A stretch of DNA of 64,000 nucleotides, taken from NCBI GenBank assembly GCA_012270485.1, contig JAAXIF010000105.1, positions 57,088 to 121,087 of the forward strand, read 5' to 3'. This document shows positions 7,257-62,743 of this stretch, piece after piece; the first letter of the stretch is position 1, and every line of letters starts with the position of its first letter. The position numbers and the translations under genes were made by a program. The DNA is from Sphingobacteriales bacterium. Lineage in GTDB: Bacteria > Bacteroidota > Bacteroidia > Chitinophagales > Chitinophagaceae. The notes beneath the pieces are model-generated. The model saw only the letters and a program-made list of their open reading frames with translations, had not been told where the DNA came from and ran no database searches.

Positions 7257-7700
7257 ATGACTTTAGATGAAATTAAGAAAGAGTGGGAAAAGGATTGTGA
7301 GATAGACGATATCGAGTTAGATAAATCGTCTTTAGAAGTTCCTAAACTCCATGCAAAATATCAAGACTTATTGTCTAGTAAGATTCTTGTTATGAAACAG
7401 TATCAATTCAAATATGATACACTTCTAAAAGATAAGTGGTTGTGGTATAACGGAAAAATGTCACAAGAACAAATTCAAGAGTTGGGTTGGTCAGACGACC
7501 CTTTAGACGGATTAAAGATTATGAAAAATGATTTACAAATTTTCTATAATTCTGATAAAGATATTCAAGAACTCAATGCAAAAATCGAATACTTAAAAGT
7601 CACAATAGATTACCTCAAAGAGTGTATGCAAAATATCACTTGGAGACACCAAACGATTAAGAATACAATCGATTGGAGAAAGTTCATGGCGGGGTCATAA
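7257..7700 (+). CDS. uvsY: UvsY recombination mediator
   Basis: 147 aa, UvsY-like helical protein (KILVMKQYQFKYDTLLKDKWLWYNGKM...) directly upstream of an oxygenase gene and uvsW. Confidence 0.85.
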   Translation: MTLDEIKKEWEKDCEIDDIELDKSSLEVPKLHAKYQDLLSSKILVMKQYQFKYDTLLKDKWLWYNGKMSQEQIQELGWSDDPLDGLKIMKNDLQIFYNSDKDIQELNAKIEYLKVTIDYLKECMQNITWRHQTIKNTIDWRKFMAGS

Positions 7701-8389
7701 TGCCACTACACGCGAATCATGTTTGGATTGCAGAAGCATTCTTCACACCTACAGAAGTAGATTCTATACTTGCAATTGCAAATAAAAAAGATTGGGACGA
7801 AGGAAGGATTGGTGATGGACGTGAAAATGACCCTGATAGAGAAGAAACAGATAGTGGTGCAGTAAATAGTGAAATCAGACAATCACAAGTTAAGTGGTTA
7901 ATGGTTCCTGAAATGAGTAAAGAGTTTCACGATAAACTCTTTTCTGCAGTTCAATATGCGTGTGGAGATAATCATTGGAACTGGGACTTTACTAATTGGG
8001 AAAATTTTCAATTTACAAATTATACTGCAAAACCAAATTTACCTAAGGGTGATTTTTATACTTGGCATACTGATGCAGGCCCACCAACACGTTCAAATTA
8101 TGCAGACGGAAGTATTCGTAAATTAAGTTGCACTATTCAATTATCAGACCCCGATGATTATGAGGGTGGTTTATTTCAATGGTTAGAACCGACTCATACT
8201 TTTGACAGAATTCAATTAGGTCAGAGAACAGTTGGTTTAGATGATATGACTAAGACAGCACCATTTAGTGCAAAGACACGTGGTTCTATTATTCTATTTC
8301 CTTCAGACGTTCACCACCAAGTCACACCCGTGACACGTGGTTCTAGAAATTCATTAGTTGGTTGGTTATTAGGTCAACCTTATAAGTAA
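7700..8389 (+). CDS. 2OG-Fe(II) oxygenase (PKHD/PiuC-like)
   Basis: FYTWHTDAGPP (HxD), GGLFQW, SDVHHQVTPVTRGSRNSLVGW distal His/Arg; ATG at 7700 preferred over the track start. Confidence 0.85.
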   Translation: MPLHANHVWIAEAFFTPTEVDSILAIANKKDWDEGRIGDGRENDPDREETDSGAVNSEIRQSQVKWLMVPEMSKEFHDKLFSAVQYACGDNHWNWDFTNWENFQFTNYTAKPNLPKGDFYTWHTDAGPPTRSNYADGSIRKLSCTIQLSDPDDYEGGLFQWLEPTHTFDRIQLGQRTVGLDDMTKTAPFSAKTRGSIILFPSDVHHQVTPVTRGSRNSLVGWLLGQPYK

Positions 8390-16241: not shown

Positions 16242-16868
16242 ATGTTAGAATTGATAGACGAGGCTTCAAGAGTCTTACGCACACCACCACCTGAGTTCGA
16301 CTTCGAGAATCCACCCGAAGACCCAAAAGAAATTGAAAAGAACCTTGCAACTGCAATGGAACAATTTGGTGGTATTGGATTATCTGCAAATCAAGTTGGA
16401 TTAAACTACAGAGTTTTTGTTATGAGAACTGCAGATAAAGGAATCGTTGCATTTTTTAATCCCGAAATAACTAAAGTTTCACAAGATACAGATTTAATGA
16501 AAGAGGGTTGTCTATCTTTTCCCGACCTTTACCTTATGATAAAAAGGTCAAAAGAAATAGAATTTAAATATCAAGATGCAGAAGGTGAAGAACATACACT
16601 TTATCTTAATGGTTTAGGTGCAAGGTGTGTTCAACATGAGTGTGACCACTTGAATGGTATCCTATTCTTACAACGTGCATCTAGACTCAAATTAGAACGT
16701 GCATTGAAAGTTCGTCCTAAAGAGAGGAGAAAGAGAATTGAATATGAACAAAGAATGGCCTATGCAAGAGCAATCGCAGAACGTGAATCTAATCAGAATG
16801 CCGAACCTGATAACGGAACAGGAATCGAAGAATCTGATAGTGTGGTTCAAGAATCACAAGCATCTTAG
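16242..16868 (+). CDS. def: Peptide deformylase
   Basis: GIGLSANQVG, EGCLSFP, QHECDHLNG motifs. Confidence 0.95.
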   Translation: MLELIDEASRVLRTPPPEFDFENPPEDPKEIEKNLATAMEQFGGIGLSANQVGLNYRVFVMRTADKGIVAFFNPEITKVSQDTDLMKEGCLSFPDLYLMIKRSKEIEFKYQDAEGEEHTLYLNGLGARCVQHECDHLNGILFLQRASRLKLERALKVRPKERRKRIEYEQRMAYARAIAERESNQNAEPDNGTGIEESDSVVQESQAS

Positions 16869-17400
16869 ACAAGTCGGAGATGGTTCGGACTATAGAGGAA
16901 TTGACCTCATTCATATACACACGAACTGGGTAAGAGATATTTTCAATAGAGTTGGTCATGACGTGACCAGTGAAATATATCATGCAGTGGGAACAAGAGT
17001 ATATCCCGAAATGACTGCAATCAATGAGTGGGAAATCGGTGGTGTTCAAGAACCACACTTAGACACTTATTCTACAGTAGAAATAGAAAACCAAGCAATA
17101 GAAGAATCACCTAGTAGAGAATGGACTGTTATTCTCTATTTAAATGGTCATGAATCATTTAGAGGTGGTGAAACTTATTTTCCCGAGATGGGGCCGACTG
17201 GAACTATTATTGAACCAGTTGCAAATGAAGGTATCGTATTCAAAGGTTTAGAACTAAAACATGGAGTCTATCCAGTTCGTAGAGGTTCTAGATTTACCAT
17301 TTCAATGTGGTTTTCAAACAACAGAGAAAATATCCTTACAGACGAGAGAACAAAAGACTTCTCGGCAGACCACTTCAAATTAAGACAAAATAATCCTTAA
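16738..17400 (+). CDS. 2OG-Fe(II) oxygenase (prolyl-4-hydroxylase-like); start may be 16738 or 16798
   Basis: EPHLDTY (HxD), FRGGETYFP, LKHGVYPVRRGSRFTISMWF. Confidence 0.85.
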   Translation: MNMNKEWPMQEQSQNVNLIRMPNLITEQESKNLIVWFKNHKHLRQVGDGSDYRGIDLIHIHTNWVRDIFNRVGHDVTSEIYHAVGTRVYPEMTAINEWEIGGVQEPHLDTYSTVEIENQAIEESPSREWTVILYLNGHESFRGGETYFPEMGPTGTIIEPVANEGIVFKGLELKHGVYPVRRGSRFTISMWFSNNRENILTDERTKDFSADHFKLRQNNP

Positions 17401-25792: not shown

Positions 25793-25815
25793 TTAGTTGA
25801 CAAAAAGTCATTTTA

Positions 25816-25838
25816 GGGGGACACTGTCCCCCTTTTTA
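25816..25838 (+). terminator. Rho-independent terminator
   Basis: GGGGGACA-c-TGTCCCCC followed by TTTTTATT. Confidence 0.9.
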
Positions 25839-25839
25839 T

Positions 25840-25847
25840 TATAAATA
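25840..25847 (+). promoter_or_regulatory. T4-type late promoter TATAAATA at head of the curli/CHASE2 cassette
   Basis: Exact motif, 6 nt before ATG 25854, immediately after terminator. Confidence 0.75.
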
Positions 25848-25853
25848 GAAGGT

Positions 25854-26150
25854 ATGGAAGAAGTATTTAATTTGATAGGTGACGTTGGAGTTCCCATTGC
25901 AATGGCATTGATAATGGGATTCTTTATATTCATGGTAATCAAACAAATCTTCGAAGGGATAGTCGATAGTATTAAGACACTTACAATGTTTTGTGAATCG
26001 TTAGAGAATCGTGCAAGAACAATGTCTAACGAAATGATAAAGATTGATATGCTAGTGTCAAGTGCATTAGAGTTAAGACCTGATATAGAGAGAGTTGCAA
26101 GAGCAGAGAACTTTATAGAGGACGGGAAACTTGATGTAAGAAGGGATTAA
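25854..26150 (+). CDS. Small membrane protein A (single TM + coiled coil)
   Basis: 98 aa; VGVPIAMALIMGFFIFMVIKQI TM. Confidence 0.65.
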   Translation: MEEVFNLIGDVGVPIAMALIMGFFIFMVIKQIFEGIVDSIKTLTMFCESLENRARTMSNEMIKIDMLVSSALELRPDIERVARAENFIEDGKLDVRRD

Positions 26151-26152
26151 TT

Positions 26153-26437
26153 ATGGAAGCTGAAGTCCCCTTTATTGTCGAACTAATAACCGATTACGGA
26201 TTCCCAGTTGTTATGATGGTAGGACTAGGATATTTCGTATATTATGTATGGTGGTTTATTGGTGAAAAGATAGACCCCGAAATTGAAAAAATGCATTTTG
26301 CATTAATCCGAGTAATTGACCAAACTAGAATGTTAGACCAAGACCTCATACGTCTTAAAGAAAAGGTTGACGTGGTTCTAGAATATCGTGAAAATGAAAA
26401 GAAAAAGATTTCGGCTAAAACCATTAATAATGATTAA
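26153..26437 (+). CDS. Small membrane protein B, same architecture as 25854-26150
   Basis: 94 aa; YGFPVVMMVGLGYFVYYVWWFIGEKI then acidic/helical tail. Confidence 0.65.
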   Translation: MEAEVPFIVELITDYGFPVVMMVGLGYFVYYVWWFIGEKIDPEIEKMHFALIRVIDQTRMLDQDLIRLKEKVDVVLEYRENEKKKISAKTINND

Positions 26438-26927
26438 ATATATTTTACCATTTTGTTTTATATCGTTTTTACTATCATTCCAACTTAACGGAACGGAGAT
26501 AGTTCACAAGTTTAAAAATCCCTCATTCTCAGGTATTGGAACGGGTGCTCATTATCTTACAATTGAGAACCAAGAATCCAGCCGTAAGAAAGCAATAGAG
26601 GACGCATTAGAATCTGCAAGGAAAGCTGCTGAGAGGGAAGCAGATAACACTACGCTTGCAAAATTTATCAGAAACCTAGAGAGCAGAATTTATGCTCAGT
26701 TCGCAAAACAATTAGTTGAATCAATGTTTGCAAATGATAATCCTGCTGGTTTCGGGTCATTCATATTAGAAGGAAACACTATAACATGGGAAGTTATCAC
26801 CGATGAATCGGGTGCTGAGTTTATCAAACTTACAGTGGTTGCGGAGGACGGAACTTCTACAGTTATAGAAATCCCAGTCGGAACAGGTAATTTTGCTCAA
26901 GACCCTGATGGTGGTTCAGGTGGTTAA
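26388..26927 (+). CDS. csgF: Curli assembly protein CsgF-like (start possibly 26430, ATGATTAAATATATTTTACC)
   Basis: Signal peptide then VHKFKNPSFSGIGTGAHYLTIENQ (CsgF FxNPxFGG-like N-terminus), SRIYAQFAKQLVESMF, GNTITWEVITDE. Confidence 0.8.
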   Translation: MKMKRKRFRLKPLIMIKYILPFCFISFLLSFQLNGTEIVHKFKNPSFSGIGTGAHYLTIENQESSRKKAIEDALESARKAAEREADNTTLAKFIRNLESRIYAQFAKQLVESMFANDNPAGFGSFILEGNTITWEVITDESGAEFIKLTVVAEDGTSTVIEIPVGTGNFAQDPDGGSGG

Positions 26928-27822
26928 GTATTTACTTGCACTTACACTACTAATTAGTGGGTGTGCCTCAGTTCCAAAATTTACAGATTATCCACAAGAC
27001 TGTAAGAATTGGGAACAAGGTGTCCGTAAGGATATGATAACTGGAATTAAGAAACCAGTCACAAGAGATTATATTTGTGTAGAGTTTCCCGAAGTTGTCA
27101 AATTACCTTCGTATGTAGAGTTATTAAACCTTCCACCTGCGGAAGAACGACCAATTGTTGCAGTATATACTTTCAATGATAAAACTGGTCAAAGAAAAGC
27201 AAGAGAGGGAATCGCAGACTTCTCGACTGCAGTCACCCAAGGTGGTGTCGAAATGGTTATCGATGCACTTAAGACTGCTGGAGGTGGAACTTGGTTTAGA
27301 GTTGTAGAACGAAATGGAATCGATGCGTTGGTTCGAGAAAGACAAATCATTCGTTCTGCAAGACAAGATTTTGCGAAAATTTCAGGGGAAGACCCCAAAG
27401 GAGTTCAACCATTATTATTTGCTGGAATTATAATTGAAGGTGGAATAATAGGGTATGATACTAATATTCAAACTGGAGGCTCAGGCGCAAGAACCCTCGG
27501 TATTGGATTTAGTCAACAATATCGTCAAGATGTTGTGACCATTTCAATGAGAGCAGTTAGTGTTCTCACTGGAGAGGTATTACTTAATGTTCAAACTCGG
27601 AAGTCGATACTATCCGTTGGTGGAGGTGGTGACATATTTAAATTTGTCGAACAAGGAACCCAACTAGTAGAGATTGAAGACGGAGTGGGAAATAATGAAT
27701 CAGTGACTTACGCAGTAAGGACTGCTATTGAAGCAGCCGTGCTGGAATTAGTATACCAAGGCCATGAACGTGGTTTTTGGAAAATAAAAGAGGTAGAAAA
27801 CGAAAATGAAGAAACTAATTAG
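26893..27822 (+). CDS. csgG: Curli secretion channel lipoprotein CsgG-like
   Basis: Lipobox LISGCASVP; AVYTFNDKTGQRK; WFRVVERNGIDALVRERQIIRSAR; LFAGIIIEGGIIGYDTNIQTGGSGARTLGIGFSQQYRQDVVTISMRAVSVLTGEVL, diagnostic CsgG features. Confidence 0.93.
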   Translation: MLKTLMVVQVVKYLLALTLLISGCASVPKFTDYPQDCKNWEQGVRKDMITGIKKPVTRDYICVEFPEVVKLPSYVELLNLPPAEERPIVAVYTFNDKTGQRKAREGIADFSTAVTQGGVEMVIDALKTAGGGTWFRVVERNGIDALVRERQIIRSARQDFAKISGEDPKGVQPLLFAGIIIEGGIIGYDTNIQTGGSGARTLGIGFSQQYRQDVVTISMRAVSVLTGEVLLNVQTRKSILSVGGGGDIFKFVEQGTQLVEIEDGVGNNESVTYAVRTAIEAAVLELVYQGHERGFWKIKEVENENEETN

Positions 27823-28546
27823 TTTAGGATTATTATCCTTAATGTCGACAACATTCCTTTTCGCACAAGCCACTGATGACAACGAAATCAAGATTACACA
27901 AACTGGTGACACTCTTGATTTATACATCGACCAAATTGGATTCGGTAATAAGATAGGGGGAGATAATGGGTCTTCGGGTTCACTATCTGCAATGAGTATT
28001 ACTGGTTCTACTTTGGACTTTGATTTGGATTTCTCAGGAAACAATAACGTCCTATTCGGGCCAGTTGTTGCTGATAGTTCTGTTTATAAGTTAGATTTCA
28101 CTGGAGATTCTAACAGCATAGATTGGAATATTGGATACCAAGGAAGTGCGGATTCATCAGACATAAACTTTGACGTGACTGGAAGTAGTAATACTTTCGA
28201 CCTCGACCAAGGTTATTTCTTTAGTGCAGAGAGGTTAGACGCAGACTTAATACTAATCGGTAGTTCAAATGTTTTTGACGTTGATTGGGAAAGTGACGAT
28301 TTAACTTGGAACTTCGATATTACTGGAGGTTCTAACAATGTTAATACATTGCAAAAAGATGGAGAACAGTCTTTAACGTTTACACTTGATGGAGATAGTG
28401 CAGACGTAGACATAAACCAACTTTCAGGAACTTGTGCAGCTTCTGTTAGTGGTTGTGCTTCACCTGATTCAATAATTACATTGGATATAACAAGTGACAA
28501 TGCAACAATTCAAATCAATCAAAAAGATTCAGCTAACGATTCTTAA
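27806..28546 (+). CDS. Curlin-like (CsgA/CsgB-type) secreted repeat protein 1
   Basis: Signal peptide; NEIKITQTGDTLDLYIDQIGFGNKIGGDNG and repeated N/D-rich strands ending INQKDSAN. Confidence 0.75.
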   Translation: MKKLISLGLLSLMSTTFLFAQATDDNEIKITQTGDTLDLYIDQIGFGNKIGGDNGSSGSLSAMSITGSTLDFDLDFSGNNNVLFGPVVADSSVYKLDFTGDSNSIDWNIGYQGSADSSDINFDVTGSSNTFDLDQGYFFSAERLDADLILIGSSNVFDVDWESDDLTWNFDITGGSNNVNTLQKDGEQSLTFTLDGDSADVDINQLSGTCAASVSGCASPDSIITLDITSDNATIQINQKDSANDS

Positions 28547-29648
28547 TTTGTTGTTATTCAGTGGGGTTGCATTCAGTGACCCCATTGGAGATATCGTAGA
28601 GTCAGTCGGACTCGGAAAAATTACACGTCAAAATACAGATTTCGTATCACCTGAAGTAGGTTATGATATTGAATTGTATGACGTTGCAGAAACAGTAAAC
28701 GGAAGAATGAAGATTGAGTTCTTAGACGAAGAAGAACTTGATTTAATTGAACACACTATCGTATACATTGACGAAGTGTATTATGACCCTAATCCGTCCA
28801 AATCAAAAATGGCTATGAGAATGGTTCAAGGGACGGCACGATTTGCTTCAGGTCAAGGTAAAAAAATAAAGAAAGCAAATATAGACATATCAACACCGAC
28901 AGCACAAATTGCAATTAACGGAACAGATTTTACAACTACAGTTGACGAGCTAGGAAGAACACTCGTTATACTTTTGCCTGACGAAGACGGAATTACACCT
29001 TCAGGTGAGATTAGAGTTTATAATGAAGGAGGTGAAACTATACTGAATAAGGCATATCAAGCAACAATGGTATCAAGTGTTGACCAACCACCAACAGGTT
29101 CAGTAGTAATACAAAACTTAACAACTTCAATGATTGATAATATGTTTATTGTCAATCCACCAACAGAGGTTAGAGAACAAATAGAAGAAGAAGCAAAGGA
29201 CGACCAAAATCAAGACCAAGGAATACTAGACGTAGACTTCTTAGAATTTAATGAGTTAGAAGGAGATGCACTTGAGGATACACTTGAAGACGACTTCACT
29301 GAATTAGATATAGACCTATTAGACGTAGACTTCCTCACCGACCTACTAGACGTAGTAGAGGAATTAGAGAGAACAACAGTTAAATTAGGAGATGCACAAA
29401 AGAAAGGTGGTGCTGGTGACTTCAATTTACAAGGTGCTGTAGTAGGATTTAACAAAGATTCACAATATAATGTGTTTGTGCAAGACGGAGATTTATATCT
29501 TTTCAGAAATGTGAATGGTGTAATTGAAATTATCATTACACAAGGTGGAAGTGGTTTTATTGAAACAAATGTCGAAGGTTATCAAGGTATTATTGAGTTT
29601 GGAAATGGTGACCCAAGTATACGTATCTTTATCAACCAATCCAACTAA
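28500..29648 (+). CDS. FecR-domain-like secreted/periplasmic protein
   Basis: Signal peptide; ARFASGQGKKIKKANIDISTPTAQIAINGTDFTTTVDELGRTLVILLPDEDG (FecR-like). Confidence 0.75.
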   Translation: MQQFKSIKKIQLTILNLLLFSGVAFSDPIGDIVESVGLGKITRQNTDFVSPEVGYDIELYDVAETVNGRMKIEFLDEEELDLIEHTIVYIDEVYYDPNPSKSKMAMRMVQGTARFASGQGKKIKKANIDISTPTAQIAINGTDFTTTVDELGRTLVILLPDEDGITPSGEIRVYNEGGETILNKAYQATMVSSVDQPPTGSVVIQNLTTSMIDNMFIVNPPTEVREQIEEEAKDDQNQDQGILDVDFLEFNELEGDALEDTLEDDFTELDIDLLDVDFLTDLLDVVEELERTTVKLGDAQKKGGAGDFNLQGAVVGFNKDSQYNVFVQDGDLYLFRNVNGVIEIIITQGGSGFIETNVEGYQGIIEFGNGDPSIRIFINQSN

Positions 29649-29669
29649 ATAATACATAGGAGGCAACTT

Positions 29670-29816
29670 ATGGATATTTTATCAAAAGTCTTTAAGTGGC
29701 ATGAGAGAAGAACCGAATGGTGGTTAAACGAATTCGGTATGACTCAATATCAAGCTATGTGGTTTGCATGGTTTAAAGGTATATTAACAATATTAATATT
29801 ACAATGGATATTTTAA
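29670..29816 (+). CDS. Tiny Trp-rich membrane protein (48 aa)
   Basis: MDILSKVFKWHERRTEWWLNEFGMTQYQAMWFAWFKGILTILILQWIF*, RBS aggagg. Confidence 0.6.
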   Translation: MDILSKVFKWHERRTEWWLNEFGMTQYQAMWFAWFKGILTILILQWIF

Positions 29817-30607
29817 AGAAAACATTTCTTATCATAGGGATTTCTATAATCCCTATGTTTTCCTATGCAGACGATAATCACGTTCATGTAGAACAAGTCA
29901 ATGGTGGTGATAATACAGATTTACAGATAGACCAAATAGGTTATAATAACCTTACACGTTTTTCTTTTGACCACCAAAATAATACAATAGACCTTTTACA
30001 ATCAGGAAACAATTTGTATATTGGTTGGACTGATACATGGGGTTCGGGTAAAAGTTGGGGTGGTGATTTAGACGGATATAATAATGAATTAGAAGTTAGA
30101 CAAAAATGTTCTGTCACAAGTTGTAATGATAATGATTTTGGATTTCATATATGGGGTAATTACAACCAAGTTGTTTTTGGTCAAGGATATGAAATCAACA
30201 ACTCACTTACACCTACTTGGAATTATGACGGAACGGAGCCTGGTGGAAACTATGTAAGATTAGACATTCATGGTGACTACAATGACTTTAAAGGAAGTCA
30301 GAAACAAGATTCGGATTCAATATATCATTCAATGACTTGGAACATTTATGGTGATTACAATGACGTATTTTCAAAACAATTGCAGAATGGTGATAAGACA
30401 CTTACTGGAACAATTAACAACGATTACAATGAAGTTAGTGTAATTCAAAAAAAGACTGGAGCTCACACTGCAACAATAACACTAGACGGAACATACGGAA
30501 CAGATTTAACCTTAGTTCAAACTGGAACTGTTTCACAAACATATACACTATCTCAAACATGTAATACAATAGGTGGTTGCACTGTAAACGTCACTCAAGG
30601 TAATTAA
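29804..30607 (+). CDS. Curlin-like secreted repeat protein 2
   Basis: Signal peptide; HVHVEQVNGGDNTDLQIDQIGYNN; repeated GDYNDxxxxQ motifs. Confidence 0.75.
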   Translation: MDILKKTFLIIGISIIPMFSYADDNHVHVEQVNGGDNTDLQIDQIGYNNLTRFSFDHQNNTIDLLQSGNNLYIGWTDTWGSGKSWGGDLDGYNNELEVRQKCSVTSCNDNDFGFHIWGNYNQVVFGQGYEINNSLTPTWNYDGTEPGGNYVRLDIHGDYNDFKGSQKQDSDSIYHSMTWNIYGDYNDVFSKQLQNGDKTLTGTINNDYNEVSVIQKKTGAHTATITLDGTYGTDLTLVQTGTVSQTYTLSQTCNTIGGCTVNVTQGN

Positions 30608-32451
30608 TGTATTCGTGGAAAACAGTTGTAATAACCATAGGGTTATTATTCGGTCTTAAGATATGGAATCCCTATTTCATAGAAAATATATCATGGTCTT
30701 ATTTTGATTATCTACACCAATCTCAGGAAGTAGTTCAGGTAGATAATATTGTCTTAGTAGATATAGACGAACCTTCACTTGAAGTGTATGGTCAGTATCC
30801 TTGGCCAAGGTCTATTTACAGGGATTTAATGTTAGACACTTCATACACTAATACACATGTTTTCACTCAACTCTTTAAAGAACCTGATAGATTTCAGGGT
30901 GACGAAGCATTTGCAGAAGGTTTAGTAAATCGATTATCAATTCTATCTTCTGCACCAACAGTTCAAAAAGATACTGGTTCAGCACCTTTTGTAAGAACTA
31001 GTGTTTTCGGTGGAGGAAATATAGACGACCATATATGGAGTTTCTCAGGAATCTCTTCACCGATTCCAATACTAGAACAAAATTCATATGGTTCAGGTGT
31101 GACAATTACTACACCACCAATCAGTGGAACTGCAAACTTTGACGGAACAGTTCGTTCTGCACCATTAATTGTTTCTGCAAATGGTGTAGTGTATCCCTCA
31201 GTTGCACTAGAAGTTTTACGTGCAATGTATGACCAACCTAATTATCAGACTCGTGTGACACCCGAAGTTGGAATCGAATGGATTCGTATCGGAAGACAAC
31301 CCCCAATCGAAACCACTCCAACTGCAGATATCCTTATAGGATATTGGAATGACTTCGAGAGGGTGTCTGCAAAAGATTTACCAAATTCTAACCTAGAGAA
31401 CAAGATTCTAATTTGGGGTCTGACGGCTGAAGGTCTGAATAATCCAGTTTCAACCCCAGTGGGTGTAAAGTATCCTCACGAAGTTCAAGGTGCAATCCTC
31501 CACTCCGTCGCCACAGGAGTTCAAATACAACAATCCTACTATCTTGAATTCTTAGAAGTCGTTCTTCTATTGACAGTCCTTTTAGGAATAATGGTATCGG
31601 TCTACACACTTCCCACAATTTTTTCGGGGATAGTGAGTCTAGGTATCGTTGGATTTCAGGTGGGTTTGGGTTTCTATTTGTGGACTTCAAGTTTCGTTCT
31701 TTTCGATATCTTCTACTCATCGATGGCCTCCATAATAGTGTTTGGACATGCTTCCTTCAACAAATATTATAAAACCTATCAACTCAAAGAACAAATTAAG
31801 AAGCAGTTTCAAAAGTATTTATCTCCCGACATGGTTGACCAACTTGCAGAGAATCCTGAACTATTAAAGTTAGGTGGTGAGAGAAAAGAAATGACATTCA
31901 TGTTCATGGACATATGTGGATTCACTCCAATATCAGAAGCATATAAAAATAAAGACGACCCCGAAGGATTGGTTGATTTGATAAACAAGTTCTTAGATGT
32001 CCAAACAAAGATTATCCTAAATAATAAAGGAACCATAGACAAATATATGGGTGACTGTATCATGAGTTTTTGGAATGCTCCCTTGGATTGTGAAGACCAT
32101 GCAGAACTCGCCGTTAAATCTGCAATAGAAGTATTAGAGGCAACAAAAGAATTAAATGAAGAACTTAAACCTCTCAACCTACCTCCTATCAATGTTGGTA
32201 TTGGTATCTCTACAGGTGAATGCATTGTCGGAAACATGGGGTCAGAAGTTAGATTTGACTATTCCGTCATTGGAGACGCCGTTAACCTCGGTGCTAGACT
32301 CGAGGGACAAACTCGCAATTACGATGGGGTGGACGTGTTGTTATCATCAGAAACATATCGACAGTGTCCTAACAGAAAATTCTCAGAAGTTGATAGAATT
32401 AAAGTTAAGGGAAAATCCGAGGAAGTCACAATTTACACTCCTCTCACCTAG
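30607..32451 (+). CDS. CHASE2-domain class III adenylate cyclase
   Basis: N-terminal TM + CHASE2-like (VDIDEPSLEVYGQYPWPRSIYRDLM), three TMs, then FMDICGFTPISE, GTIDKYMGDCIMSFW, GIGISTGECIVGNMGSE, DYSVIGDAVNLGARLEG catalytic motifs. Confidence 0.92.
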   Translation: MYSWKTVVITIGLLFGLKIWNPYFIENISWSYFDYLHQSQEVVQVDNIVLVDIDEPSLEVYGQYPWPRSIYRDLMLDTSYTNTHVFTQLFKEPDRFQGDEAFAEGLVNRLSILSSAPTVQKDTGSAPFVRTSVFGGGNIDDHIWSFSGISSPIPILEQNSYGSGVTITTPPISGTANFDGTVRSAPLIVSANGVVYPSVALEVLRAMYDQPNYQTRVTPEVGIEWIRIGRQPPIETTPTADILIGYWNDFERVSAKDLPNSNLENKILIWGLTAEGLNNPVSTPVGVKYPHEVQGAILHSVATGVQIQQSYYLEFLEVVLLLTVLLGIMVSVYTLPTIFSGIVSLGIVGFQVGLGFYLWTSSFVLFDIFYSSMASIIVFGHASFNKYYKTYQLKEQIKKQFQKYLSPDMVDQLAENPELLKLGGERKEMTFMFMDICGFTPISEAYKNKDDPEGLVDLINKFLDVQTKIILNNKGTIDKYMGDCIMSFWNAPLDCEDHAELAVKSAIEVLEATKELNEELKPLNLPPINVGIGISTGECIVGNMGSEVRFDYSVIGDAVNLGARLEGQTRNYDGVDVLLSSETYRQCPNRKFSEVDRIKVKGKSEEVTIYTPLT

Positions 32452-32764
32452 AATTATTGACCCACCTTCAACTGCAGATTGGGCTATCTTTCTCACATTA
32501 CAAATTGCAGATATCTATACCACATATCGTGGACTCAAATATGATTGTGTAAGAGAACTAAATCCACTCATAGGTGAAAGACCTTCAGTCAGTGATATGA
32601 TGTTTACTAAGACTGTAATACTTGTTCCAGCAATACAATATGACTTAGAGAATGGTAATTTGACTAAAAAATCCATAAGACAGATAAATGGATTTATGGC
32701 TATGGTTGTAGGAAATAACTACAATGTCTGGCATCGTTCTGAAAAATATTGCAAAAAAAGATAA
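32324..32764 (+). CDS. DUF5658-like/hypothetical membrane protein, start uncertain
   Basis: Conserved-looking part WAIFLTLQIADIYTTYRGLKYDCVRELNPLIGERPS starts near 32470; the overlap with the cyclase gene is probably not all coding. Confidence 0.45.
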   Translation: MGWTCCYHQKHIDSVLTENSQKLIELKLRENPRKSQFTLLSPRIIDPPSTADWAIFLTLQIADIYTTYRGLKYDCVRELNPLIGERPSVSDMMFTKTVILVPAIQYDLENGNLTKKSIRQINGFMAMVVGNNYNVWHRSEKYCKKR

Positions 32765-32871: not shown

Positions 32872-32928
32872 ACACCTAATGCTCAAATGAGGTTAGGATA
32901 TATTAACTTGCTAAAATTAGGAGAAAAT

Positions 32929-33339
32929 ATGACGCATTTAGATATATTTGGTCAATTCAGACCGCTCACAATTGGATTCGATAGATACTTTGATGAACTT
33001 AATCGTCTATCTAATCATACAACAACAAACTACCCACCTTACAACATTGTAAAGGAAGATTCAGAGAATTACTGTATCGAACTTGCAATCGCAGGGTTCG
33101 GTAAAAAAGACATTGAAATCACTAAAGAAAGAAATGTCTTGACTATCGAAGGTAAAGTTGACGAAGACTCAAAAGACTTTGTTCATAAAGGACTTGCTTC
33201 AAGAGCCTTCAAAAGAACTTTTACACTTGCAGACGATGTTGAAGTCAAGGGTGCCGACATGGTAGATGGAATTCTACATGTTAAACTGGTAAGAATTATT
33301 CCCGAAGAGGATAAACCAGTTTCTATTAAAATTAAATAG
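32929..33339 (+). CDS. Hsp20/alpha-crystallin small heat shock protein
   Basis: YNIVKEDSENYCIELAIAGFGKKDIEI...LASRAFKRTFTLADDVEVKGADMVDGILHVKL. Confidence 0.93.
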   Translation: MTHLDIFGQFRPLTIGFDRYFDELNRLSNHTTTNYPPYNIVKEDSENYCIELAIAGFGKKDIEITKERNVLTIEGKVDEDSKDFVHKGLASRAFKRTFTLADDVEVKGADMVDGILHVKLVRIIPEEDKPVSIKIK

Positions 33340-33408: not shown

Positions 33409-33930
33409 ATGTTAACAGTTGGACAACAATTCCCTGCGTTCTCACTGCAAGGAATAAATGAAAACAACGAGTTTGTGAGAGTCGGTGTAGACGAAAACTA
33501 TCAACCATTAAAACATGATTGGTCAGTAGTTTACTTTTATCCAAAAGACTTTACCTTTATATGTCCTACAGAGATTGCTGGTTTTGACACTTTAGTCGAC
33601 CATGCAAACGTGATAGGAATTAGTGGTGATAATGAGTTCTGTAAATTAGCATGGAAACAAGATAATGAACTGATAGGTAATATCAGACATACACTTGCAG
33701 CTGATTGTGGACTAGGATTATCTTCAGTATTAGGTATTGTTAATGAAGAAGAAGGTGTATGTTATCGTGCAACCTTTATCTTTGATAAAAACAGAATCAT
33801 TCAACATGCTTCAGTCAATGCATTAGACACTGGAAGAAACCATACAGAAGTTCTAAGAACTTTGAAAGGTTTACAAGCAGGTGGACTAACTGGTTGTGCA
33901 TGGGACGATGGGGACGAGTTTGTCGGATAA
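33409..33930 (+). CDS. Peroxiredoxin (AhpC/TSA family)
   Basis: VVYFYPKDFTFICPTEIAGFD, peroxidatic Cys motif. Confidence 0.93.
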   Translation: MLTVGQQFPAFSLQGINENNEFVRVGVDENYQPLKHDWSVVYFYPKDFTFICPTEIAGFDTLVDHANVIGISGDNEFCKLAWKQDNELIGNIRHTLAADCGLGLSSVLGIVNEEEGVCYRATFIFDKNRIIQHASVNALDTGRNHTEVLRTLKGLQAGGLTGCAWDDGDEFVG

Positions 33931-43340: not shown

Positions 43341-44543
43341 ATGGGTGCAAAAAATCTACATTTAGAACACTTAGAAGACGAGATAATCAATCAAGGTATT
43401 GACGGAGGTCGTGGGGCTATAAACTTCTTACAGGGTCTTAGGGACATGTTGAAGGGTAATTCCAATTCAGGTGTTAATATGACTGTAAAGTGGGACGGAG
43501 CTCCTGCTATCTTTTGTGGATTACACCCCGAAACCAATCAATTCTTTGTTGCAAAGAAATCACTCTTTAACAAAGAACCCAAATTTTACACTTCAGAATC
43601 AGAAATCAAAAATGCAAGTGAGTTATCAGGAACACTTCAGGAAAAGTTCTTGACTTCATTCCAGTGTTTGTCTAAACTATCTTGGAATACAATACTTCAA
43701 GGTGATTTAATGTATACCAACGATAAGAAAATGCAGAAGATTGACGGGAAATCCTTTGTCACATTTCAACCTAACACAATCATGTATGCAGTTAATACAG
43801 AATCAGACTTAGGTAAAAAGATTGCAAAATCTAAAATGGGAATAGTGTTTCACACTACTTACACTGGTGGAACTATAGAAGACTTATCTGCAAGTTTCGG
43901 TGCTAACATATCCAAACTAGGAAACAGTTCAGACGTATGGATTGACGATGCAACTTATAAAGATGTCAGTGGTAAAGGTTCAATGACTGCAAAAGAAACA
44001 CTTGCACTTACACAAGAGTTATCTAAAACAGGTAAAGCTTTCCATGGAATCAAAAGAAAAGACTTAACTAAGTTCATGGAAATACAAGGTGAAATACTTA
44101 GAAAAGGTTCAGGTGCAAGTTATAAAACATATTGTAATACACTTATTAGAGGTGGTTCATACAAACCAACTTACGAAGGATATATGAAACACTTCGAAGG
44201 ATATTGGGAAGAGAAAGTAGTTGGTAAAGTAAAACAAGAAAAAACAAAAGCAATCAAAAGAGAAATCGGTGAACAACTTTATAACGAACTTAGAAGTTTA
44301 AAGAAAATGATTCAGAATCTTACTTCATTTATGGGACACTTGGTCGTTGCAAAACAACTTATCATAAATGCACTAAATAGAGTAAAGAGTATCGGAACTT
44401 TCAAAAAGACTGCAAATGGTTTTGAAGTGGTCAATCCCGAAGGATACGTTGCAATCGATAAAACAGGAAGTGCAGTCAAACTCGTAGATAGAATGGAGTT
44501 TGCATATAATAACTTTACTGCACAAAAGAATTGGGATAAGTAA
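43341..44543 (+). CDS. Ligase/nucleotidyltransferase-fold-like protein (KxDG; DUF6267-like)
   Basis: MTVKWDGAPAIFCG (motif I-like KxDG), LQGDLMYT, NPEGYVAIDKTGSAVKLVDR (motif IV/V-like). Confidence 0.65.
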   Translation: MGAKNLHLEHLEDEIINQGIDGGRGAINFLQGLRDMLKGNSNSGVNMTVKWDGAPAIFCGLHPETNQFFVAKKSLFNKEPKFYTSESEIKNASELSGTLQEKFLTSFQCLSKLSWNTILQGDLMYTNDKKMQKIDGKSFVTFQPNTIMYAVNTESDLGKKIAKSKMGIVFHTTYTGGTIEDLSASFGANISKLGNSSDVWIDDATYKDVSGKGSMTAKETLALTQELSKTGKAFHGIKRKDLTKFMEIQGEILRKGSGASYKTYCNTLIRGGSYKPTYEGYMKHFEGYWEEKVVGKVKQEKTKAIKREIGEQLYNELRSLKKMIQNLTSFMGHLVVAKQLIINALNRVKSIGTFKKTANGFEVVNPEGYVAIDKTGSAVKLVDRMEFAYNNFTAQKNWDK

Positions 44544-45823
44544 TGAAAACGTTTAACGGATTTTTAGTAGAGGCAAAAGAGAAAGGTGCAGTATTTACCT
44601 TTGGTCGTTTCAATCCACCTACTACAGGTCATGCAAAGTTAGTAGATAAACTTAAAAAAGAATCAAGAGGTGATGACGTTCTGTTATTCACTTCACACTC
44701 CAACGACAAACAAAAGAATCCACTCAATCATAGAGATAAAATTAAATACCTTAGAAACTTCTTTGGAAAGATTGTTGCAGACGTAAACGCAAGAACAGTA
44801 TTCGAGATTGCAACAGAATTACATAAAAAGAAATACACTAGAATCAAAATGGTTGTTGGGTCAGATAGAGTGAGAGAGTTTGATACACTTTTAAACAAAT
44901 ATAATGGTGTAAAAGCAAGACACGGATTCTATAAGTTTGACGAAATCAATATAGTATCAGCTGGTGAACGTGACCCTGATGCAGATGATGTCAGTGGAAT
45001 GTCTGCAAGTAAACTCAGAGGATATGCAGAAGCAGGTGACTTTGATAATTTCAAACAAGGTGTTCCTACAAAGAATAAAGGATTAGTTCAGAAACTTTAT
45101 AACGATATCCGTAAAGGAATGGGTATTGCAGAATCAACACTACCACACTACATGGTCGAAGATTTGATAGACGAAGGTGTTTACGACCCAGGCACCTTTA
45201 AAGCAGTTTTCCTAATGGGTGGGCCAGGTTCAGGTAAATCAACAGTTGTGAAAAAACTAGGATTGACTGCACTTGGTTTAAAAATGGTTAACACTGATAA
45301 AGCATTCGAAACAGGATTAAAGAAAGCAGGATTAGGATTAGATTTAAGAAACATGCCTGCAGATTTACGTGACCCAATTAGAAAACGTGCGAAAGATATC
45401 ACCAAAAAGAATATGGATTCATATATCAACAACAGACTTGGAATGATATTTGACACTACAAGTGCTGATTCAAACAAGATTAAGAACTACAAAAAAATGT
45501 TAGATAAAATCGGATACGAATACAAAATGATATTCGTTAGTGCAAGTCTTGAAAATGCACAAAAGAGAAATGAAATGCGTGCAAGAAAATTACCACCTGA
45601 AATAGTTAAAAAGGATTGGGAAGCTTCTAGAAAGAATGCAGATTTATTTAAATCTATGTTTAAAAAAGATTTTGTTGAAGTGACAAATGACGATGATATT
45701 GGAACACTAGAGAAGAAAGCAAACAAACTCTATGCAAAATTATTGGGTTGGTCTTCTTCATTCCCTAAAAACAAACTTGCACTTGCATGGAAACAAGCAG
45801 AGTTAGACGCAAAAAGGTCATAA
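44543..45823 (+). CDS. Nucleotidylyltransferase-P-loop kinase fusion with capsid-targeting-like N-terminus
   Basis: MKTFNGFLVEAKEKG; GRFNPPTTGH (TxGH), GMSASKLR; FLMGGPGSGKSTVVKKLG Walker A. Confidence 0.85.
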   Translation: MKTFNGFLVEAKEKGAVFTFGRFNPPTTGHAKLVDKLKKESRGDDVLLFTSHSNDKQKNPLNHRDKIKYLRNFFGKIVADVNARTVFEIATELHKKKYTRIKMVVGSDRVREFDTLLNKYNGVKARHGFYKFDEINIVSAGERDPDADDVSGMSASKLRGYAEAGDFDNFKQGVPTKNKGLVQKLYNDIRKGMGIAESTLPHYMVEDLIDEGVYDPGTFKAVFLMGGPGSGKSTVVKKLGLTALGLKMVNTDKAFETGLKKAGLGLDLRNMPADLRDPIRKRAKDITKKNMDSYINNRLGMIFDTTSADSNKIKNYKKMLDKIGYEYKMIFVSASLENAQKRNEMRARKLPPEIVKKDWEASRKNADLFKSMFKKDFVEVTNDDDIGTLEKKANKLYAKLLGWSSSFPKNKLALAWKQAELDAKRS

Positions 45824-57769: not shown

Positions 57770-60093
57770 ATTCAGACATTAGAGTTGTAAAGTCAGACGG
57801 GTCAAAAGTAGAAATCGATTTAGACAAAATCCATAAAATGGTTCATAAAGCCTGTAAGAGGATTACAGGTGTATCAGAGTCATTAGTAGAAATGAACAGT
57901 GGTTTACAATTCTATGACGGAATCACAACAAAAGAAATTCAAAAGATACTTGTCAAAAGTGCAAGTGATTTGATATCATTAGAGTCACCAAATTATCAAT
58001 TCGTTGCAAGTAGATTACTTTTATTTGCAATCCAAAAACAAGTCTTTAATACAAAGTGGAAGGATTCAGAAATCTATCCACCTCTTAAAGATATCATTGA
58101 GAGAAACATAGACTACGGAGTATATGACGATGACATATTGAAATGGTATAAGGAAGAAGAGTTAGAAATATTAGACAAATATATCAAACACTCACGTGAC
58201 CTTACATTTACATATGCTGGATTACAACAAATAGTAGACAAATATCTAGTGCAAGATAGGTCGAGTGGAATGGTATATGAAACCCCACAATTCATGTATA
58301 TGTTAATTGCTATGACTTTATTTAAAAAGTATAGTGGTGAACTAGGAGACAAAATAGAGTATGTCAAAAAATACTACGACGCAATCTCAACATTCAAAAT
58401 CAATATCCCAACCCCTATCATGGCTGGAGTTCGAACTCCTTTACGACAATTTGCATCGTGTGTCCTTGTCGATACAGACGACACTCTCGACAGTATCTTC
58501 TCAAGTGATATGGCGATTGGAAAATATGTTGCACAAAGAGCTGGTATCGGAATTAACGCAGGAAGAATTAGAGGACTCGGTTCGAGAATTAGAGGAGGTG
58601 AAGTCCAACATACGGGAGTTATCCCATTCCTTAAAAAATTTGAGTCAACTGTTAGATGTTGCACCCAAAATGGTGTCAGAGGAGGAAGTGCAACAGTTCA
58701 TTTCCCAATATGGCACCAAGAAATAGAAGACATTCTAGTATTAAAGAACAACAAAGGAACAGAAGATAATAGAGTTCGTAAACTTGATTACTCAATACAA
58801 TTAAGTGAACTCTTTTATCAACGTTTCCTAAAGAACGAAGACATTACACTATTCTCACCACATGACGTGGACGGATTGTATGATGCATTCGGAACACCTG
58901 AGTTTGACGAATTATATGAGAAATATGAACGTGCAACTTCAGTTCCAAAATCTAAAGTAAATGCAAGAGAATTATTCTCTAGTTTATTGAAAGAACGTGC
59001 TGAAACAGGTAGAATTTACATTATGAATATCGACCATAGTAATAGTCATAGTTCATTCAAAGATAAAGTGAACATGAGTAATCTATGTCAAGAGATAACA
59101 TTACCTACAGACCCTATTCAACACATTGAAGGGAATGGTGAGATTGCACTTTGTATTTTAAGTGCAATCAATGTAGGTATTGTTAAAGAAGAAGAGTTGG
59201 AATCTCTTTGTGATTTATCAGTGAGAGGACTTGAAGAACTGATAGATTTTCAAGAATATCCAGTATTAGCTGCAGAACAATCAACCATTGCAAGACGTAG
59301 TCTTGGTATCGGTTATATAGGGCTGGCACATTACCTTGCAAAAAACAAGGTCAATTATAGTGACCCTGAAGCATGGAAACTGGTTCATGACTTAACAGAG
59401 AGGTTCCAATATTATCTTCTTAAATCGTCAAACAATCTTGCACGAATCAATGGTGCATGTATAGATTTCAACAGAACAAAATATCATGACGGAATCTTAC
59501 CTATTGATACATACAAGAAAGACGTAGACGAATTGGTTCCAAACAAACTTAATATGGATTGGGAACAACTCAGAAAAGATATCAAACAATATGGATTAAG
59601 ACACTCGACATTGACTGCACAAATGCCGTCAGAGAGTTCTAGTGTCGTTTCTAATGCAACCAATGGTATTGAACCACCACGTGACCACCTAAGTGTTAAG
59701 AAGAGTAAAAAGGGAACACTCAAACAGGTTGTCCCTCAATATTCTATATTGAAGAATGCATACACACTACTATGGGATATGCCTGATAATACAGGATATA
59801 TCAATGTGGTTGCAGTTATGCAGAAGTTCTTTGACCAAGCAATCAGTGGAAACTGGTCTTATAACCCTGAAAATTATGAGAACGGAGAAGTTCCAGTGTC
59901 AGTAATGGCAAGGGATTTACTCAACACATATAAATACGGGTGGAAAACAAGTTATTATCAGAATACTATGGACGGGAAAACTGAAGACGTAATTACAGAC
60001 CCTAACTCAGCGTCTAATGATTACATACCACCTATGTTGGATTCAGTGAGTAATGATGAAGGAGAAGAAGATTGTGAAGCATGTGCCATTTGA
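57766..60093 (+). CDS. nrdA: Ribonucleotide reductase class Ia alpha subunit NrdA
   Basis: PTPIMAGVRTPLRQFASCVL, GIGINAGRIRGLGSRIRGGEVQHTGVIPFLK, NLCQEI, C-terminal CEACAI. Confidence 0.97.
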   Translation: MNSDIRVVKSDGSKVEIDLDKIHKMVHKACKRITGVSESLVEMNSGLQFYDGITTKEIQKILVKSASDLISLESPNYQFVASRLLLFAIQKQVFNTKWKDSEIYPPLKDIIERNIDYGVYDDDILKWYKEEELEILDKYIKHSRDLTFTYAGLQQIVDKYLVQDRSSGMVYETPQFMYMLIAMTLFKKYSGELGDKIEYVKKYYDAISTFKINIPTPIMAGVRTPLRQFASCVLVDTDDTLDSIFSSDMAIGKYVAQRAGIGINAGRIRGLGSRIRGGEVQHTGVIPFLKKFESTVRCCTQNGVRGGSATVHFPIWHQEIEDILVLKNNKGTEDNRVRKLDYSIQLSELFYQRFLKNEDITLFSPHDVDGLYDAFGTPEFDELYEKYERATSVPKSKVNARELFSSLLKERAETGRIYIMNIDHSNSHSSFKDKVNMSNLCQEITLPTDPIQHIEGNGEIALCILSAINVGIVKEEELESLCDLSVRGLEELIDFQEYPVLAAEQSTIARRSLGIGYIGLAHYLAKNKVNYSDPEAWKLVHDLTERFQYYLLKSSNNLARINGACIDFNRTKYHDGILPIDTYKKDVDELVPNKLNMDWEQLRKDIKQYGLRHSTLTAQMPSESSSVVSNATNGIEPPRDHLSVKKSKKGTLKQVVPQYSILKNAYTLLWDMPDNTGYINVVAVMQKFFDQAISGNWSYNPENYENGEVPVSVMARDLLNTYKYGWKTSYYQNTMDGKTEDVITDPNSASNDYIPPMLDSVSNDEGEEDCEACAI

Positions 60094-61042
60094 AGATAGA
60101 ACTGTAGAATTAGTTATAGAAGAAGATTTACCAAACGGAAAGATTAAAAAATATCCTTGGAATACAAATAGACTTACTGCAGATTTTGTTAAAAATAGAT
60201 ATGTGGTATTAAGGAATTTCATTCCTAAAGATATCATAAATTTTACAATGGATTGTTGGAAAGCAACTGAACATAAGAGAGAAGTTCATAATGCAATCTT
60301 TAAACGTGAAGAAACAGACATAACTATTAATTCACCAAAGAATTCAATAGGAAAATCTGATGGTGCTTATAGTTCTCCATGGGGTATTGCACTAAATAGA
60401 TACCTATGTGATAAACTCAGAGGTGTTCTTGACATAGATATAAGGGAAACATATTCCTACACAAGAAAATATGACAGAGGTGCATATCTATCTTCACATA
60501 GAGATAGACCTGCTTGTGAGATATCTACAACTGTTTGTTTAGATTATCAAACAGACGATGGTAAACCATGGGTAATATGGGTTGACAATTCTAAGAATTG
60601 GGTCGATTTTGAAGACACTCTCACAATGCAACAAGAAACTCAAGGAATACCCAATAGAAAAAGAGAGTCAGTTGCATTATCATTAGAGGTTGGTGACGTA
60701 TTAGTATATCAGGGGCCTAATGTTGCACACTGGAGAGATTATTTGGTTGGTGACTATAGTTATCATATATTTTGTCATTTCTTTAATGCAGAGGGAATGT
60801 TTAGTAGACACCCTAGAAATAGGTGGACAGGTGAAGACACTAATTTACAAAGTCAGATTACAAAATATCCTATGCCTTTAGAATATGACGGAAGATTATC
60901 AAGGTATAGTTCACAAGACGATGCACCTGAAGAATTAAAGAAAGCATATAGAGAATTTTTAGATTCTTACGAAGAAAAAGAATATGGACTACGTAGTGAA
61001 TTCTCAAATAACTACGGAGATTTTAAGGAAAAAGAAGAATGA
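60053..61042 (+). CDS. 2OG-Fe(II) oxygenase-like protein between nrdA and nrdB
   Basis: YLSSHRDRPACEIS (HxD), VALSLEVGDVLVYQGPNVAHWRD (distal His). Confidence 0.75.
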   Translation: MMKEKKIVKHVPFEDRTVELVIEEDLPNGKIKKYPWNTNRLTADFVKNRYVVLRNFIPKDIINFTMDCWKATEHKREVHNAIFKREETDITINSPKNSIGKSDGAYSSPWGIALNRYLCDKLRGVLDIDIRETYSYTRKYDRGAYLSSHRDRPACEISTTVCLDYQTDDGKPWVIWVDNSKNWVDFEDTLTMQQETQGIPNRKRESVALSLEVGDVLVYQGPNVAHWRDYLVGDYSYHIFCHFFNAEGMFSRHPRNRWTGEDTNLQSQITKYPMPLEYDGRLSRYSSQDDAPEELKKAYREFLDSYEEKEYGLRSEFSNNYGDFKEKEE

Positions 61043-62138: not shown

Positions 62139-62303
62139 ATGGAACTAGGATTACTATTTGCAATTTCAATCTTATCACTTGCAGCCATTTATGGTTTGTT
62201 GGTAAGAAACTTGGAAGGGACTAAAGGTCTTACAAGACCTTATAGGACTAAAAATGGTAAACTTAGAACCGCATTAAAAACTAGGGAAAGACATATAATA
62301 TGA
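62139..62303 (+). CDS. Tiny membrane protein (54 aa)
   Basis: MELGLLFAISILSLAAIYGLLVRNLEGTKGLTRPYRTKNGKLRTALKTRERHII*; stop overlaps cytochrome start. Confidence 0.6.
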   Translation: MELGLLFAISILSLAAIYGLLVRNLEGTKGLTRPYRTKNGKLRTALKTRERHII

Positions 62304-62743
62304 AAGAATTAGGAATGGCATTAATGGGAACTTTTGCAATTGCATTGTTCTTTGGATTTAAAATATACCCCGATTTAGAATATACGGGTGGAACAAGTGT
62401 ATCTTCATGCACTGGAATGTGTTATGCAGAATATGTAGAAACATATGGAACTCCAGCAGAGATAGAAAGAAAGAAACAAGAACTTGCAAGTGCAGACGAA
62501 TTTAGTTCTATTAGAGGTTTATGGGCTGGTTGTGCAGCCTGTCATGGTCAGAATGGTGAAGGAATGGCAGTGTTCCCAGCACTTAAAGGTCAGACAAAAG
62601 AGTATATTACAGATAGACTCTATGCATACAAAAACAGAGAAACAATAGGTGCAATGTCCCAAACTATGTGGGGACAAGCTGCAATGTTGTCAGATAGTGA
62701 TATCGAAACAATTGGTAAATTTATTCAACAGGAGTTAAAATAA
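62300..62743 (+). CDS. Membrane-anchored c-type cytochrome (c553/c4-like)
   Basis: N-terminal TM/signal; CAACHGQNGEGMAVFPALKGQ; distal MSQTMWGQAAMLSDSDIETIGKFI. Confidence 0.9.
   Translation: MKELGMALMGTFAIALFFGFKIYPDLEYTGGTSVSSCTGMCYAEYVETYGTPAEIERKKQELASADEFSSIRGLWAGCAACHGQNGEGMAVFPALKGQTKEYITDRLYAYKNRETIGAMSQTMWGQAAMLSDSDIETIGKFIQQELK

Follow-up and report, generated by a model that had tools for sequence, protein, structure and literature searches.

Why would a T4-like myovirus carry curli-type secretion genes together with a FecR-domain protein and an adenylate cyclase? The question is raised by a stretch of 64,000 nucleotides (nt) of contig JAAXIF010000105.1 (assembly GCA_012270485.1, positions 57,088 to 121,087 of the forward strand), here called the window, which is part of such a phage: in gp23 it shares 67% identity with Methylophilales phage Melnitz and 66% with Pelagibacter phage HTVC008M. 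Flanked by regA and hsp20, the window contains twelve features in a plus-strand stretch, from a terminator through a DUF5658-like open reading frame (ORF), and the genes at 25854-32764 are tightly packed and mostly overlapping. Our preferred reading, to which we assign a probability of roughly 45%, is that this cassette is one late-transcribed operon for curli (type VIII) export of the alphaproteobacterial type, with a built-in sensor, and that its products coat the infected cell. The features are the following (window coordinates; values after family names are E-values).

25815..25834, + strand: intrinsic terminator with an 8-bp stem and a T run, separating the unit from the upstream genes; the same arrangement precedes many related cassettes
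25840..25847, + strand: TATAAATA, T4-type late-promoter motif, 6 nt 5' of the first start codon
25854..26150, + strand: sTM1, 98 amino acids (aa), with one N-terminal transmembrane (TM) helix starting at about residue 11, then a coiled-coil-like tail; phrog_18771, 1.6e-23
26153..26437, + strand: sTM2, 94 aa, a paralogue of sTM1 by alignment; phrog_18771, 2.7e-23
26430..26927, + strand: csgF, with signal peptide; PF10614, 1.6e-10, above the cut-off; phrog_35372; ATG at 26430 chosen by eye
26920..27822, + strand: csgG, lipoprotein; PF03783, 2.4e-49, 167.9 bits; GTG at 26920 and lipobox LISGC by eye
27806..28546, + strand: curlin-like 1 (Cur1), predicted to be secreted; Curlin_rpt PF07012, 6.5e-5, 23.2 bits (cut-off 20.7); C-terminal Cys pair
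28500..29648, + strand: FecR-domain protein with signal peptide; PF04773, 6.7e-8; its C-terminal beta domain ends in the curlin-like strand SIRIFINQSN
29670..29816, + strand: tiny Trp-rich membrane protein, 48 aa
29804..30607, + strand: curlin-like 2 (Cur2), predicted to be secreted, beta-solenoid-like; C-terminal Cys pair and VNVTQGN end
30607..32451, + strand: CHASE2-class III adenylate cyclase; CHASE2 PF05226, 2.3e-26; Guanylate_cyc PF00211, 2.8e-19; phrog_35576, 5e-169
32156..32764, + strand: DUF5658-like small protein; PF18902, 6e-5, slightly under the cut-off; start ATG at 32156 or 32327, both within the cyclase gene

Pfam confirms, above the respective cut-offs, the CsgF, CsgG, Curlin_rpt, FecR, CHASE2 and Guanylate_cyc identities that an earlier note on this DNA had named, and the gene coordinates agree with the single packed, mostly overlapping plus-strand run it described. 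All the genes it listed are present, but two paralogous small membrane proteins and the DUF5658-like last ORF had been overlooked. As that note also had it, CsgE and CsgC are not recognizable: none of the ten cassette ORFs matches either family in Pfam. The csgG product matches the NCBIfam CsgG model at 3.7e-48, under the equivalog cut-off; unnamed PHROGs families already exist for sTM, CsgF, CsgG, FecR and the cyclase; and there is no Rfam match anywhere in the window.

Across 160 viral loci, collected in two scans of viral contigs, the recurrent gene order is sTM1-sTM2-CsgF-CsgG-Cur1-FecR-(48 aa)-Cur2-cyclase-(DUF5658), and well over 100 contigs share it exactly. In 57/57 loci with enough flanking sequence, the pore, CsgF, curlin, FecR and cyclase genes are all retained along with the two sTM genes, so that the neighborhood survey suggested by the earlier note finds co-localization conserved. 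Gene by gene, among loci with sufficient flank, CsgF is present in 78/78 and 76/76, and Cur1, FecR and the cyclase are each present in 37/37 window-like and 20/20 HTVC008M-like loci; at least two curlins are encoded in 37/37 and 17/20 of these, respectively, and the 48-aa protein in 19/37 and 0/20, and the DUF5658-like ORF is found in 35/37 window-like loci. All measurable cassette genes are under purifying selection, with pairwise ratios of nonsynonymous to synonymous substitution rates (omega) between the window and three relatives of about 0.06-0.32 where computable. Because the same order recurs in well over 100 contigs and omega stays below 0.35, the cassette is not a chance grouping. We also reject the reading of a lone pore: wherever the flank is long enough, genes for substrate and sensor stand beside that of the pore. 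In a minority type (L242-L244), the order is sTM2-CsgF-sTM1-CsgG; these podovirus-like contigs and their relative L253, which has a T7-like primase, carry Rz-type spanin genes directly 5' of the cassette (L253 7125-7899). Contig C58 (locus L005), a second phage contig in the same bin as the window contig, carries a diverged whole cassette (CsgG 71%, cyclase 49%).

The timing of expression is indicated by the leader. The T4 late promoter consensus is TATAAATA, and its counterpart in T4-like cyanophages is NATAAATA (PMC2984593); as in a T4-like late unit, which has one of these just upstream, the window motif directly follows the terminator and sits immediately before the first ATG. Among 92 non-redundant leaders of related cassettes, the pattern [CT]ATAAATA or CCTAAATA occurs within 50 nt of the first start codon in 60, with a gap of 4-8 nt in 51 of these, compared with 5/359 internal gene starts of the same operons; a terminator-like hairpin is also present in 35 of the leaders. 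The portal gene (718) of the window phage has TATAAATA at 705, with the same spacing as in the cassette. Melnitz likewise carries TATAAATA ahead of its first cassette gene. Counted along the entire window, the motif shows no significant excess (8 occurrences against 5.5 expected), and hence it is its position that carries the evidence. Late expression of the cassette in window-like phages, which the earlier note had assumed, is well supported by this conserved sequence signal.

The likely cargo of the pore is the pair of curlin-like proteins. Cur1 matches the CsgA model at 1.7e-4, under the cut-off, and Cur2 has no Pfam match. Profiles of the phage curlins match curlins adjoining bacterial csgG, down to 4e-13, which argues for the kinship of Cur2 with curlins, and the AlphaFold2 model of Cur2 is an all-beta repeat of short strands (predicted local distance difference test score 77, predicted template modeling score 0.79) whose best PDB matches are weak and mostly to beta-helical proteins. 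Thus, Cur1, through its Pfam match, and Cur2, through the profile relation and the modeled beta repeat, can both be taken as putative curlin substrates, as had been proposed. A C-terminal Cys pair is present in 74/76 Cur1 and 58/58 Cur2, whereas Cys is absent from 114/135 bacterial curlins used for comparison.

The predicted sensor is the FecR-domain protein, in which an N-terminal signal peptide is present and the cytoplasmic anti-sigma part is absent; the cassette contains no gene for a sigma factor (FecI) or a TonB receptor. In its structural model, the FecR domain matches the C-terminal signaling domain of PupR (6ovk, E 1.2e-3, prob 1.00) and is followed by a separate C-terminal beta domain; with the PF04773 match, this makes it a periplasmic FecR/cell-surface signaling domain. 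The FecR profile has no match among PDB sequences. Its C-terminus resembles that of the curlins. An alternating strand followed by a Gln tail was found in 68/68 complete window-like FecR proteins, 55/58 Cur2 and 0/723 other ORFs of at least 100 aa, the ORFs being called mechanically and the homologs not being independent. The strict pattern is present in 21/49 HTVC008M-like FecR proteins, and a similar end, by a looser pattern, in 118/135 bacterial curlins. This common strand-plus-Gln tail suggests that FecR touches the curlins.

The genes upstream of csgF encode small proteins, about 95-98 aa long and each with a single TM helix at the N-terminus, and such sTM proteins accompany csgF in 153-154 of 154 loci. 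In the accessible part of PMC9599517, one or two histidine kinases are placed before csgF. None of 28 of these small upstream proteins contains a kinase domain at E up to 1, and we therefore reject an upstream histidine kinase in these loci; judging from position, the published 'histidine kinase' genes are probably these 95-98 aa membrane proteins. The sTM proteins weakly resemble a holin family (E 0.0056) and YvrJ (E 0.044), a likeness that is a lead only.

Taken together, these predictions place behind one late-type motif a lipoprotein pore (CsgG), CsgF, a pair of curlin-like proteins and a FecR-domain protein, all three secreted, a CHASE2 cyclase whose active site is intact, and the two sTM proteins, a set that stays together in related phages; up to the protein families and the timing, the proposed sequence of events is supported by sequence, and what follows on fiber, sensing, cyclic AMP (cAMP) output and benefit is what we infer. 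Once late expression starts, nine CsgG subunits with CsgF would form an outer-membrane channel, through which Cur1 and Cur2 would be exported to form a beta-solenoid coat or fiber on the infected cell. In the periplasm, FecR with its curlin-like C-terminal strand would dock on the pore or on curlin subunits; it would signal export by way of the CHASE2 domain and so switch the cyclase. The coat might give the doomed cell, or its debris, an altered surface that keeps competitors from adsorbing or holds neighboring cells together. Favoring this reading, the pore never occurs without substrate and sensor among complete loci, the cassette comes straight after Rz-type spanin genes in its podovirus-like version, and an outer-membrane barrel feeding CHASE2 cyclases has a precedent in NsrA with CyaD1/D2/K of Sinorhizobium (PMC13001267). 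Some of the ocean's most abundant bacteria are hosts to relatives of the window phage, and about 7 kb is spent on the cassette; a coat of curlin-like protein on infected cells, should it prove real, would add a virus-made surface to marine microbiology.

Several observations weigh against a late-made curlin coat. Canonical QxGxxN motifs are scarce in the phage curlins (mostly 1-3), a contrast to the bacterial curlins that is exaggerated because the 135 bacterial proteins were picked for at least four such motifs (the Cys contrast is less affected); with few motifs and Cys pairs, the phage curlins may not polymerize. The Cur2 model matches the CsgA fibril 8enq weakly (E 1.5), and the Foldseek E-value of the FecR match is just 1e-3. 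Fibers have been shown by no experiment on any of these phages, and Melnitz cultures showed no clumping (PMC9004378). The late motif is absent from HTVC008M-type leaders, and in the window its short distance from the ATG would leave the transcript with almost no leader. For superinfection exclusion, an early gene would be a better fit than one expressed late.

Other explanations were weighed as well. CsgG and CsgF could be a repurposed pore, a gated outer-membrane channel aiding depolarization or lysis in line with the pinholin or secretin role proposed for csgGF in Melnitz (PMC9004378), the small membrane proteins serving as inner-membrane partners and the curlins as plugs. The late-promoter motif, the Rz spanins directly upstream in podovirus-like loci, the holin-like and YvrJ-like character of the sTM proteins and the poverty of the phage curlins in amyloid motifs would all suit such a channel. 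However, the argument from Melnitz leaned on the absence of csgA/B, whereas two secreted curlin-like genes under purifying selection are present in almost every complete locus; the window phage encodes its own lysozyme, FecR and the cyclase are needless for a pore alone, and the holin similarity is slight, so that we consider this explanation unlikely. Still less credible, in our judgment, is an uptake channel, in which an ungated CsgG pore would admit larger nutrients or cofactors during infection, with FecR as an iron-related regulator (PMC7029224 and the accessible part of PMC9599517): a match to the CsgE gate is indeed lacking in the cassette ORFs and a FecR domain is present, but FecR is secreted, its cytoplasmic anti-sigma part, FecI and a TonB receptor are all missing, and the late-promoter motif and obligatory curlins fit badly. 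That the cassette is an ordinary acquired bacterial operon with no dedicated phage role is hardly tenable; a bacterial origin is likely, but the order is conserved over highly divergent phages of two kinds, under purifying selection and with a phage-type promoter.

The remaining alternative makes the cAMP branch the main output, the curli part sensing the outside and the CHASE2 cyclase altering host or phage physiology via a cAMP-binding regulator. The cyclase is present in every complete locus and its catalytic set is intact (metal-binding D435 and D483, adenine-binding K479 and D557, transition-state N560 and R564) and mostly conserved, the cyclases of Melnitz and locus L016 belonging to another catalytic-domain lineage with Ser in place of Asn. 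Against this, no cyclic nucleotide monophosphate (cNMP)-binding domain is found on phage contigs C79 or C58. In the group of a Pelagibacter metagenome-assembled genome, a class III cyclase is encoded in 0/101 genomes and 91 contain no cNMP-binding domain; a weak match occurs in the other ten, always in an 870-aa frame, and the one that was read is a large non-CRP protein, no CRP-type receptor being seen. To a SAR11-like host cAMP would be foreign, and with such a host a simple output via a host cAMP regulator is disfavored; this reading would then require a different sort of receptor or a different host bacterium. A role centered on cAMP thus appears quite doubtful. We hold equally doubtful a bolder version of sensing, in which FecR is a decoy subunit on the curlins or CsgG/CsgF and, through CHASE2, translates how amyloid export stands into a cAMP signal, in a host without a class III cyclase or CRP-type receptor; the phage would thus have an orthogonal second-messenger circuit whose timing is set by late secretion. 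If true, this would be a phage-built, self-monitoring export machine.

The near-complete gene set, which the earlier note considered unusual, has been published before. The curli operon is widespread among pelagimyophages (PMC7029224), csgGF has been described in Melnitz (PMC9004378), and the accessible part of PMC9599517 gives the order histidine kinase-CsgF-CsgG-CsgA/B-FecR-CsgA/B-adenylate cyclase for podovirus and myovirus pelagiphages, with expression in metatranscriptomes and presence at all 65 stations of Global Ocean Viromes 2.0 (GOV2.0). The note's central point was therefore right but not new. What is new here is the late motif, the nature of the upstream genes, the FecR tail and Cys pairs, the bacterial operon of Hyphomonas sp. 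TMED17 (see below) and the intact cyclase without an evident receptor. Given the late promoter, the nature of the 'histidine kinase' genes, the FecR tail and the missing obvious receptor for cAMP, what was a vague account of auxiliary genes can now be put to the test.

Like the window, the pelagiphage module of PMC9599517 combines CsgF-CsgG-CsgA/B-FecR-second CsgA/B-adenylate cyclase and lacks CsgE, CsgC and CsgD, but it is described there with upstream histidine kinase(s) in place of the small membrane proteins seen here, and the late promoter, FecR tail and Cys pairs were not met in the part of that source available. The HTVC008M and Melnitz records show the same gene order as the window. 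The HTVC008M cluster of CsgF, CsgG and curlin (PMC7029224; CsgG 51% identity over 226 aa) is located between ssb/oxygenase genes and the tail tape measure gene, rather than between regA and hsp20, and unlike the window lacks the 48-aa protein and the DUF5658-like gene. The Melnitz region includes FecR, two curlins and the cyclase, the latter differing in catalytic-domain lineage from that of the window; csgA/B are reported missing (PMC9004378), yet the record annotates two curlin-repeat proteins. With E. coli curli (csgBAC/csgDEFG), the window shares the CsgG and CsgF families and curlin-type repeats, but it lacks CsgE, CsgC and CsgD, its curlins have few motifs and a C-terminal Cys, and FecR and the cyclase are added. 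The Sinorhizobium CyaD1/D2/K-NsrA system places a CHASE2-class III cyclase and an outer-membrane barrel upstream of the signal, as proposed for the window, but has the CRP-type receptor Clr, for which no counterpart was found here.

Among 80 genome loci, those with csgG, FecR and cyclase resemble phage contigs binned with bacteria, with the exception of Hyphomonas sp. TMED17 (L015 7363-13386), in which csgF-csgG-curlin-fecR-CHASE2 cyclase are contiguous on a 705-kb chromosome contig. In contrast to the window, this operon encodes a 504-aa curlin, no small membrane proteins and a FecR without the curlin-like tail. In 249 searched genomes of the same order, none of the 28 other csgG-bearing genomes has this FecR near csgG. 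TMED17 is one exception to the statement, in the accessible part of PMC9599517, that FecR and cyclase are not inside bacterial type VIII secretion operons. In the CsgG tree, TMED17 falls within the phages or next to them; the data do not reject monophyly of the phages (approximately unbiased test, p-AU 0.41), and donor and recipient are not separated.

We set aside the host suggested by the window's own assembly, a 4-Mb genome with SusC/SusD-like genes by eye. Since csgG is found in 0/36 genomes of the same genus and the bin holds a second cassette contig (C58), the phage contigs are probably mis-binned. The tRNA genes were of no help in host assignment.

In most related phages, the start of the DUF5658-like ORF at the 3' end of the cassette falls inside the cyclase gene, by about 296 nt. 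Cyclase third-base variation is reduced in codons 550-599, so that some of this overlap may encode protein; since the reduction is confined to these codons, the ORF is a weak candidate for a long overlapping gene. Directly 3' of the cassette lie hsp20-like (32887-33339) and peroxiredoxin-like (33409-33930) genes, a position kept in several related contigs. Elsewhere in the window are a nucleotidyltransferase-like domain fused to a zeta-toxin/AAA kinase-like domain (44543-45823), three 2OG-Fe(II) oxygenase-like genes recognized by eye (7673-8389, 16738-17400 and 60053-61042), and a phage c-type cytochrome (62300-62743; Cytochrom_C 1.8e-8, CAACH heme motif) with an N-terminal membrane segment, adjoining ribonucleotide reductase genes.

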